From assembly GCA_030690365.1 (NCBI GenBank), contig JAUYGX010000023.1, positions 1 to 64,000 of the forward strand: a stretch of 64,000 bases of DNA. The letters run 5' to 3'. The notes beneath the pieces are model-generated. The model worked only from the letters and a program-made list of their open reading frames with translations. It ran no database searches and was not told the DNA's origin. Source of the stretch: Bacteroidales bacterium (lineage in GTDB: Bacteria; Bacteroidota; Bacteroidia; Bacteroidales; F082). Positions 51,033-55,154 of this stretch are shown one piece after another (position 1 is the first letter of the stretch; every line of letters begins with the position of its first letter). The translations under genes and the position numbers were made by a program.

Positions 51033-54000
51033 ATGGAAGAAAAATTCGAATCAAAGGCCCTCGAAGCCAACCTCGCTGAAACGCGCTATAAAGACATCAA
51101 GATACCTCCTGATTTTCAAAACTTTATAAATCTGTCAAAAACCTATTTTGGAATCAACAAACGCGCAAACGATTGCGTTATAGAATTTCAGCATCCTTTT
51201 TCCAACAGAAAATTTGTTACCGAAGAGCTTAGGAACATCTTGTTGACCGATTACTGGTATTATATGGGACTTGGTACTGGTGATGAAGCATTTAAAATAC
51301 CACTTCAGATGATGCAAACCCTGTTGATGGAATCAGGAAATGCTGACGATCATGTGCTTATTATTCGCTCTTTGCTTGAATTTATCGGTAAACTGGCCAC
51401 AGAATCCAACGACTATTCACCTACCATTACATACTGCCTTTCCATTCTTCGTGAGGGAATGGGTAATGACTCCCTTTGTTTTATAAAATCCTCCAAGTAT
51501 TTCGATCGTTACCTGAAAGTGATTGCCAACCACGAAACATTCAGCGAGGCTGTTTTGGCACTTACCAAAGACATCAACCGCGAAAACATCGTGTATTGGA
51601 AAAAAACCACACAGGTTGAAAACTGGCTCGACGAACAATCTGCCCTGGTGACCATCGACAAACAAATGATTGTCAACGTCATCGGCACCCCCTGGTTCAA
51701 TAGCTTGCTCCACCAATTAAACAAAGCCAATACCTGGGATCAGTTGGTGAACAAACTCCCTGAATACGACCAGATTGCCGACATCATGGCCGATGCAGTG
51801 AAATTCTTCCCCACATTCATCGAAAAATTCTACTTCAGTTTCTACCTGCTGAAACTGCCAGGCATGAAAAACCTCCATGAACGACTTATTTGGGGGTTAA
51901 ACAAAATGGTACAACACACCATGGATGAAGTTCCTCAGGATCAACTTCGCCACTTTATCGATCAACTTTTTTCGTTTGCAGCAGGTTTAAAGCAAACCCA
52001 TGCCAGCTCAGTGCTGGATATTTTCCTCACCGTTGGCAAAAAAACCATCGATATTGATAAATCCACGCAGCTTCAGATTTCACGATACTTTGAGGAAAAA
52101 TTAATTACATTCGGATTTGAAACCCCCGGAATTGTTTATGTAAACGAAGACTGGCAGCTTTCAGTGAACGAGAATCACAGAAAAAACATCAGTGTCTGGC
52201 TTGAGCTGATCGAGTATTCACAGATGGAAATGGAGAAATTGCTGTCGACATTAATTGTAAACCTGAAATTGGGGGGTATCTTTCTCAGCGACACGGATTT
52301 GTTTCAACGCGAAATCACCAAAATTCTCAACTCAAATATTGCCCCGTTTTATAAAAAGGTAAAACAGCTCACCCGCATCTTCCCGGTGTATTTTAACGAA
52401 ATTGGTGCTGAAGGCGAAATCAGAAAAGTAACCACCACCATGGATGAGATTTCGCACCGCAAGGACCAACTGGTGCACTTCCTGCGCAAGCAGGTTCATA
52501 CCGAAAGCAACAACACCCTCATCGGGCTTACCCGAAGGATATTCATTTTTTGGTACGATGGCAATCTGGAAGCACTCAGGGAAGTGCTGCCAAAAAATGT
52601 ATATCAGGGCATCGACAAGGAGAATGAATATTTTGCGCCCATTCACCACATGGTGGAGGAAATGTGCATAATCAGCGGGAAATCGCCATCAGATCTGCTG
52701 GCTGTGGGAGAAAAACGATTTGAAGAACTTCTCGACCAACTCACAGAAAGCAACCCCCGCGATGCGGAACGACTTAAAGATACCCGCCGACTGTATGCTT
52801 TCCTTAAAGAGAAATATTCGTTCGAAACGGTGGACATCATCTCTTTGCTGAAACACTACAGCTACATACAGGACACCGACATCGAAAAGTTTTCAAAAGC
52901 ACTCGAAAGCGATGATTTTGAGACTTCTCTAAAGTTCATTTACAGCTTTATGACGCGTTTAAAGCAAATCATTTTCAACCCAAAGCCAAGTCAGGGTTGG
53001 GAAAACATTTACCATAAACGCCATATTGCCATCGGAATACCATCCATGTACGGCACCTACCGGGAGCCAAAATTTGAAGCGCTTGGGCTCACCTTTCGGC
53101 TCGAAAATGTGGCCACCCGCCTCATGGAAAAAGTGGTTGCTCAAATCAACCTGAACTATATTTCGGGCAAAACACTCAAAAACATCTATACCATCCTCGA
53201 CTATTTCCGTGAAGGACTTGAACTTGATGGTATTAACAACCAGAGTTTTAACTCAAACCTGCGCATGCTCAAATACAGTCTGCGATCGCAAAGTTTCAGC
53301 TTTGAACAGTATATCAATATTTTTCAGTTTTTGGCCGAAGATGTCAAGCGCACCATCATCAAGTACTTTTTAAAGTCCTATGAAATTCCATTGCGGATTG
53401 TTGCCCAGCAATTGTTCGATGGCAAACGTGGTATATCAGAGGCTGATCTGGTAAAACTTGTCAACAAAAAATCAGAACAATTTTACCGGGAGGTTATTGT
53501 GGATGCCTTTTTGATGCAGCCGCTGGATAATTTTATCTCACGAATATTGGAGTCGCTGCGGGAGATGTCGGATAACCTGCCCGGACAGATGATTACAGAA
53601 ATCATGTCGTACAACTCCGATCTGGTAATTGCCCGTTTGGGGAAACCCAACCCACAAGTGGATAATCAGGCTTTTTTGGGTTCGAAAGCCTATCACCTGA
53701 AAAACCTCCGGATGGCCGGGTTTCCCATTCCTCCCGGATTTGTAATCACAACAGAAGCTTTCAGGAGGTATAAAGCCATTATCGGGCATCCTGAACTTCA
53801 AAAGGAAATGTACGATTTAATCCGTGAACATCTACAGTTGGTCGAAAGGGTGTGCAAGAAACAGTTTGGTAATCCACAAAACCCCCTTCTATTATCGGTA
53901 CGCTCCGGAACGGCCATATCGATGCCCGGTGCCATGGATACCTTCCTCAACGTTGGTATGAACGATGAAATCACCCAACGACTAAGCGAATCGCCTGGTT

Positions 54001-55154
54001 TTGAATGGAGTGCATGGGATTCGTACCGCAGGTTGCTCCAAAGTTGGGGTATGGCCTATGGCCTCACCCGGGATGATTTTGATAAAATCATCGAAAATTA
54101 TAAAGTCAAATACCAGGTGGAACAGAAAATTGACCTCAGCCCTACTGCCATGCGCGAAGTGGCCATGGCCTATAAAGAGGCCCTGGTAAAAAACAACCTC
54201 CATTTCGAGGAAAACATTTTCGATCAATTGCTTACCACAATTAACCTGGTGTTTGTTTCCTGGTCGTCGGAAAGGGCCAAAGTGTACCGCGAACACCTGG
54301 AAATAGCTGATGACTGGGGCACTGCGGTAGTAGTACAACAGATGATTTTTGGAAACCTGAGTGCAAATTCCGGCACCGGGGTTGTATTTACACAAGATCC
54401 TACCAAGGAAAAACATGGCGTAAGTCTTTATGGCGATTTTACCCTGAGCGGACAAGGCGAGGACATTGTAGCTGGTTTGGTCACCCCAAGGCCGGTGAGC
54501 AAAAACCAACCTTCGGCAGGACAAAACCCGGGCCGTTCGCTTCAGGAAACATTTCCGGCCATCTATAAAAGGCTCAATCAGATGGCCATCGACCTGACTG
54601 AAAATCACGGATACAGTCCGCAGGAAATCGAGTTTACCTTTGAATCGGAAAAGGCAGAAGACTTGTATATACTGCAAATCAGGGATCAGGACATGGCATC
54701 GAACCGGGCAGCAGACGTTTTCGAAACACCCATCGACCAGATGAAACTGGCCGGTCGTGGTATTGGCGTTGGCGGTGGTGCCATGAGTGGAAGGTTGGCC
54801 TTCGACGACAAGGAAATCCAACACCTGAGGGTGAAATTTCCGGGAAGTCATGTAATTCTGGTGCGCCCGGATACTGTCCCCGATGACATCGGGATGATTT
54901 TCGCTACCGATGGATTGCTGACCGGCAAAGGTGGAGCCACATCTCATGCCGCGGTTACGGCGGTACGCCTGGGCAAAACAGCCGTTGTAAACTGTGCCAA
55001 TTTACAGGTTCACGATCTGGAAAAAAATTGCGAACTCAATGGCCATGTGTTTCACAGTGGTGATTTTATTTCCATCGATGGCTATTTGGGAAATGTATAC
55101 GATGGAAATTATCCGGTTAAGTCAAGTCCTGATTACCTGGAATTTCACCTGTAG
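51033..55154 (+). CDS. Large dikinase-like protein: ~870-aa N-terminal region of unknown family + PPDK-type ATP-grasp + swivelling phosphohistidine domain; no C-terminal PEP/pyruvate TIM barrel
   Basis: [88 protein letters not shown], ending ~60 aa after the His motif; ATG at 51033 (MEEKFESK). Confidence 0.88.
   Translation: [1373 protein letters not shown]

Follow-up and report, generated by a model that had tools for sequence, protein, structure and literature searches.

A PPDK-type dikinase of Bacteroidales that lacks the PEP-binding barrel and is encoded beside GAPDH genes

The dikinase locus and its domain layout

The window analysed here is a stretch of 64,000 nucleotides from a Bacteroidales bacterium (contig JAUYGX010000023.1), within which a gene for a dikinase-like protein of 1373 residues occupies 51033–55154 of the forward strand as one intact open reading frame (ATG at 51033, stop codon at 55152–55154). 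Head-to-head with it, on the reverse strand at 49892–50899, lies its conserved neighbour gap, the product of which is a type I GAPDH that scores above the TIGR01534 cut-off and keeps the Asp of NAD-type enzymes. The mechanical start of the dikinase reading frame is at 50760; since the resulting extension (50760–51032) overlaps gap on the opposite strand, and since the proteins of relatives, which are of equal length and domain order, all begin at the equivalent methionine (or a similar start), the start is placed at the ATG at 51033. The two genes share a 133-bp intergenic region (50900–51032) in which matches to TAnnTTTG, a Bacteroidota −7-like pattern, face each gene. These sit similarly in many relatives and, as pattern matches only, are arranged such that the 5′ ends of gap and of the dikinase gene would overlap.

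The C-terminal part of the protein is composed of a PPDK-type ATP-grasp domain (residues 875–1225, 53655–54707) and, adjacent to it, a phosphohistidine swivelling domain (residues 1236–1360, 54738–55112), in that order, both on the forward strand. A Pfam scan places PPDK_N at residues 881–1160 (E 1e-35) and PEP-utilizers at residues 1273–1353 (E 2e-15), and Pfam and NCBIfam otherwise return just partial matches to models of whole dikinases. The NCBIfam PPDK equivalog TIGR01828 is matched over 875–1224 with a score of 386 against a cut-off of 843, a shortfall that results from the missing barrel for phosphoenolpyruvate (PEP) and pyruvate. Pfam detects no C-terminal TIM barrel (PF02896) in the 1373 residues, the protein terminating ∼13 residues past the His domain, and the sole PEP-utilizers_C barrel of the host genome sits in a separate, intact, true PPDK of 920 residues (G000:C81). 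Both the presence of the two catalytic domains and the absence of the barrel had been noted in an earlier sequence-only reading of this locus, and both observations are confirmed.

Full-length homologues of ∼1370 residues are present in well over 100 genomes, and the reading frame is thus not a chance one. The sample has one genome for each species, and many of these are incomplete assemblies from metagenomes. A whole-protein search recovers a full-length homologue of similar length in 22 of the 25 genomes searched from the host's family, and a profile of the N-terminal region is positive in 144 of 173 genomes of that family (some of whose records are titled Lentimicrobiaceae) and in 33 of 393 sampled from the order. 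Of 396 phylum-level and 395 class-level genomes, two samples drawn mostly from outside the order, only the host genome itself is positive. Within this sampling, the dikinase family is confined to Bacteroidales, where it is scattered beyond the host's own family; Lentimicrobiaceae bacterium and Bacteroidales UBA6244 are among the titles of public records that carry it. It is also found at 65–67% identity in three records titled Chlorobiota bacterium (L014, L016 and L020), with gap placed likewise wherever flanking sequence is available; these may be mislabelled Bacteroidales. Neither this family nor any GAPDH-linked dikinase was found described in the open-licence literature. The earlier description of the protein as an orphan does not hold, as it belongs to a full-length family that has GAPDH as a conserved partner.

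The catalytic module and the N-terminal helical region

Judged by its residues, the catalytic module is of the PPDK type and looks complete. With the numbering of C. symbiosum PPDK in brackets, K885 (K22), R957 (R92), R1000 (R135), E1143 (E279), E1200 (E323), Q1215 (Q335), R1217 (R337), T1303 (T453), S1304 (S454) and H1305 (H455) are all kept and are invariant in 16 diverse members of the dikinase family. H1305, the predicted catalytic His, lies in GGATSHAA, which conforms to the PPDK motif GGxTSHAA. The T253 position is occupied by Thr or Ser across the family and the M452 position is variable, Met being replaced in the protein studied here, which also carries Glu in place of D321. An AlphaFold model of residues 371–1373 matches PPDK structures across both domains (best 1kbl, E 9e-33). 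In a maximum-likelihood tree, the PPDK side of which consists of nine Bacteroidales sequences and that of C. symbiosum, with a single, very distant outgroup, the dikinase family and PPDK form separate groups with support of 97/95. As the barrel is absent and the module falls outside the PPDK clade, the protein is not a PPDK. A degenerate or split PPDK, its barrel lost or encoded elsewhere and its catalytic role gone, would account for half of PPDK being missing, but this explanation is very improbable: the catalytic residues are retained, the intact 920-residue enzyme accounts for the one barrel of the genome, and the module forms a clade of its own and is no truncated copy of the local PPDK. 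The last two observations largely refute a split or lost PPDK, which was rejected.

PPDK operates through two half-reactions, Enzyme + ATP + Pi <-> Enzyme-His-P + AMP + PPi and His-P + pyruvate <-> PEP (PMC5556012), where Pi and PPi denote orthophosphate and pyrophosphate. The equivalent of R135 is kept as R1000, whereas three PpsA-type sequences have gaps or Ala there in an alignment that is uncertain, and this retention gives a hint, and no more, of a Pi-dependent first half-reaction. PpsA otherwise shares the superfamily and the His-based phosphate carrier, but it has the barrel that is missing here and the similarity is weak. In glucan water dikinase (GWD), a large N-terminal region with carbohydrate-binding domains precedes a dikinase module without the PEP barrel, and the His domain stands before the ATP-grasp. 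The present protein resembles GWD in having a large region ahead of a barrel-less module, but Pfam finds no carbohydrate-binding module in it and its ATP-grasp comes before its His domain.

Dikinases without the barrel are also represented by rifampin phosphotransferase (RPH), with its order of ATP-grasp, RIF-binding and C-terminal His domains (PMC4844700), and by the two-component phenolic dikinases HpeHI, CreHI and PpsAB (PMC12167813). The family described here has in common with these the ATP-grasp and His domain, the lack of a PEP barrel and, presumably, an acceptor other than pyruvate, and with RPH also the C-terminal position of the His domain. The proposed acceptor region, however, precedes the ATP-grasp, no RIF-binding domain lies between ATP-grasp and His domain, and the module is PPDK-type. 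Since the acceptor region is unrelated to those of RPH and the phenolic dikinases and is placed before the ATP-grasp, the family is not a member of either group. The possibility that it is nevertheless a small-molecule dikinase of this kind, acting on the hydroxyl of another triose or sugar (e.g. glyceraldehyde or glycerate) and feeding GAPDH indirectly, is in keeping with the hydroxyl acceptors of the characterized barrel-less enzymes (PMC4844700, PMC12167813), and the linkage to GAPDH described below is compatible with the making of glyceraldehyde 3-phosphate. We regard it as distinctly unlikely, as the N-terminal region does not resemble the RIF-binding domain in sequence or in a fold search and the module is nearer to PPDK than to RPH.

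The N-terminal region (residues 1–870) has no credible Pfam, NCBIfam or PDB-sequence match, as a single sequence or as a profile, and weak matches in Pfam and PDB (RepL, PhoH, designed helical repeats) look compositional and were set aside. The AlphaFold model of residues 1–872 is almost entirely helix (mean pLDDT 83.7). A fold search of this model against the PDB gives nothing at E<0.001. The nearest structures are helical-repeat proteins of a generic kind, with a TM-score by query length of ≤0.2, and a known fold was rejected. A phage or plasmid origin was likewise rejected, as no phage or plasmid record was found to hold the region, and PADLOC gives no match to a defence system. Thus, the expectation of a mainly helical region of unknown type is borne out, with neither a PEP/pyruvate-binding domain in the N-terminal half nor a characterized family covering the full length found.

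Conservation, measured as identity to the window protein across 45 relatives, is distributed unevenly over this region. Residues 1–350 (51033–52082), apart from a conserved stretch of the first ∼20, evolve fast (22–57% identical), whereas residues 351–510 (52083–52562) and 641–770 (52953–53342) reach 58–94% and 51–95%, respectively, against 52–83% for the ATP-grasp. These two blocks are the best-conserved parts of the protein, above the catalytic domains, and their invariant residues include H382, D420, D422, R464, D471, E472, R476, H482, R485, K486, H489 and E491 in the first, and K662, R663, H664, Y673, Y676 and E678 in the second. Those of the second block lie in a loop (656–678) that ends in YRE and is almost invariant, with pLDDT values <50 at 657–659 and 661–673 in one AlphaFold model and at 657–675 in the other. 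This combination would be consistent with a mobile loop that is ordered by ligand in a putative acceptor site. Such conservation supports the suggestion, made from the sequence alone, that the N-terminal region serves the acceptor.

Association with GAPDH genes

Of a first set of 19 loci from the host's family, 18 have gap head-to-head as the directly adjacent gene; no other neighbour family is present at more than 8. A second set of 30 carriers from the host's family shares one genome with the first. By their coordinates, 24 of these carry a GAPDH gene of this type head-to-head and have its catalytic domain within 640 bp; in the rest, GAPDH is 3.5–17.4 kb away (5) or on a different contig (1). 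Locus L065 has no GAPDH within ∼8 kb. Overall, canonical gap is head-to-head at 41 of 49 distinct loci of the family. In other families, a GAPDH-family gene adjoins the dikinase at 15 of 19 loci and is mostly a different paralogue: canonical gap stands head-to-head in two of these 15, and the remainder have a divergent GAPDH of ∼416 residues encoded next to the dikinase downstream in the same orientation, a GAPDH-like protein of ∼340 residues encoded immediately upstream, or both. Of the two, the ∼416-residue form is the usual one as the following gene. The divergence of the dikinase from gap, read earlier as a hint of a link to central carbon metabolism, has thus proved to be one instance of a strong and conserved linkage. 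Gene order does persist among related genomes, and the loci within the host's family are related, so that simple inherited synteny, with an acceptor unrelated to GAPDH (e.g. a polysaccharide or another protein), has to be weighed. We consider it improbable, given that gap stays while the other neighbours turn over, that the adjoining GAPDH of separate lineages is a different paralogue, placed on the opposite side and the opposite strand, and that genome-wide co-occurrence persists where the genes are unlinked (e.g. genome G717).

Elsewhere around the locus, the dikinase gene and a response-regulator/histidine-kinase hybrid are closely followed by icd and gltA (57076–59619), which are kept at 7 of 19 loci, and an open reading frame of 298 residues at 63035–63931 on the reverse strand has no Pfam match.

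GAPDH-I is the best NCBIfam model for the neighbouring GAPDHs, the ∼416-residue form scoring below the curated cut-off and being 33–37% identical to the canonical form. In this longer form (SCTTT), the catalytic Cys and His and the phosphate-site Arg are kept, whereas the acidic Rossmann residue, the NAD-binding Asp, is replaced (INVGRxVG), which suggests use of NADP. The ∼340-residue paralogue has TTSSA or TTTSA in place of the phosphate-site motif TTTGAA. These two unusual paralogues flank the dikinase in other Bacteroidales, at L072, L073, L079, L080, L082 and others, e.g. at 6985–7992 (+) and 12226–13455 (+) of L073. A profile of the ∼416-residue form is positive in 18 genomes of the order sample of 393, and each of these 18 also carries the dikinase, as 33 of the 393 do (hypergeometric value 2e-22, before correction for relatedness). 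Families f2 and f4 each include a genome that carries both genes and a genome that lacks both. For genus g15, testing showed partner-type gap in 9/9 carriers and in 0/10 non-carriers; the latter have other GAPDHs instead, among them a different NAD-type GAPDH. Two non-carriers of the host's family (G015, G011) also lack partner-type gap by match length and score, and in a third (G008) no GAPDH at all was seen. As a separate observation, the second GAPDH of dikinase-carrying g15 genomes (L112, L113, L114, L123) is without the NAD-binding Asp (YMNGTCPVDY), and most g15 non-carriers that were looked at have INDLCPVDY at this position.

As particular GAPDH isoforms follow the dikinase, the GAPDH protein is the main rival acceptor: a regulator derived from a dikinase could phosphorylate its partner GAPDH, or dock on and control it through the helical region. 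The restriction of the ∼416-residue form to carriers, the different NAD-type GAPDH retained by g15 genomes without the dikinase, and the fast evolution of residues 1–350, as a docking surface might show, are in line with this. To our knowledge, however, no dikinase of this superfamily modifies a dehydrogenase, and the partners are diverse (33–37% identity) yet the putative acceptor blocks are near-invariant, for which a constant small substrate is the better fit. GAPDH as acceptor is therefore an unlikely alternative, although residues 1–350 may dock GAPDH in any case.

A proposed reaction at the triose-phosphate/phosphoglycerate node

The reading that we favour, at somewhat better than even confidence, is that of a histidine dikinase that is coupled to GAPDH and works at the triose-phosphate/phosphoglycerate node. 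The PPDK-type ATP-grasp would transfer the β-phosphate of ATP to His1305 in a reaction that probably consumes orthophosphate as a co-substrate and yields AMP and PPi, or would run in reverse. The C-terminal His domain would then swing to an N-terminal site built from blocks 351–510 and 641–770, where phosphate would be exchanged with an acceptor other than pyruvate or PEP. Because the dikinase gene is locked to GAPDH genes, the triose-phosphate/phosphoglycerate node is the most likely source of this acceptor. The interconversion of 3-phosphoglycerate and 1,3-bisphosphoglycerate, which would tie GAPDH to ATP, AMP and PPi beside PGK, is ranked first since 1,3-bisphosphoglycerate is the product of GAPDH and an acyl phosphate of high transfer potential, unstable enough to reward channelling; as a specific assignment, it is tentative and well short of even. 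It is possible but rather unlikely that the family represents a new reaction of glycolysis or gluconeogenesis. The enzyme would then be a phosphoglycerate, phosphate dikinase with an acceptor domain of new fold that, paired with a GAPDH of its own and alongside PGK, exchanges the acyl phosphate of 1,3-bisphosphoglycerate with ATP through AMP, PPi and a phosphohistidine.

Several observations weigh against the favoured reading. Gene linkage does not give a substrate, the co-occurrence counts carry no phylogenetic correction, and the co-loss in g15 could reflect few deletions because the genes are usually within 20 kb of each other. For a small-molecule site, a helical region of 870 residues is large, and the position of PPDK D321 is Glu in each of the 16 family members compared. 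PGK is present in 40/40 genomes tested, so that a role with 1,3-bisphosphoglycerate and 3-phosphoglycerate would overlap with that of PGK; a simple bypass or replacement of PGK is thereby rejected, and only a parallel route is left. Separately, a second, divergent PGK (∼430–440 residues) occurs in 7 genomes, all with the dikinase and the ∼416-residue GAPDH (L143:4980-6290, L144:5022-6305; G446, G557, G513, G651, G661). The divergent form is the only PGK found in G681, and its gene in G504 comes after one for a phosphoglucose-isomerase-like protein.

Taken as a whole, the earlier interpretation is partly supported. The locus represents a dikinase family that has a new, highly conserved, putative acceptor region and is tied to GAPDH by position and by co-occurrence. 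If a phosphoglycerate is the acceptor, lower glycolysis in these bacteria would include a PPi/AMP-linked branch of which no account was found in the open-licence literature, and if the acceptor is GAPDH itself, the family would provide a new way of controlling GAPDH.

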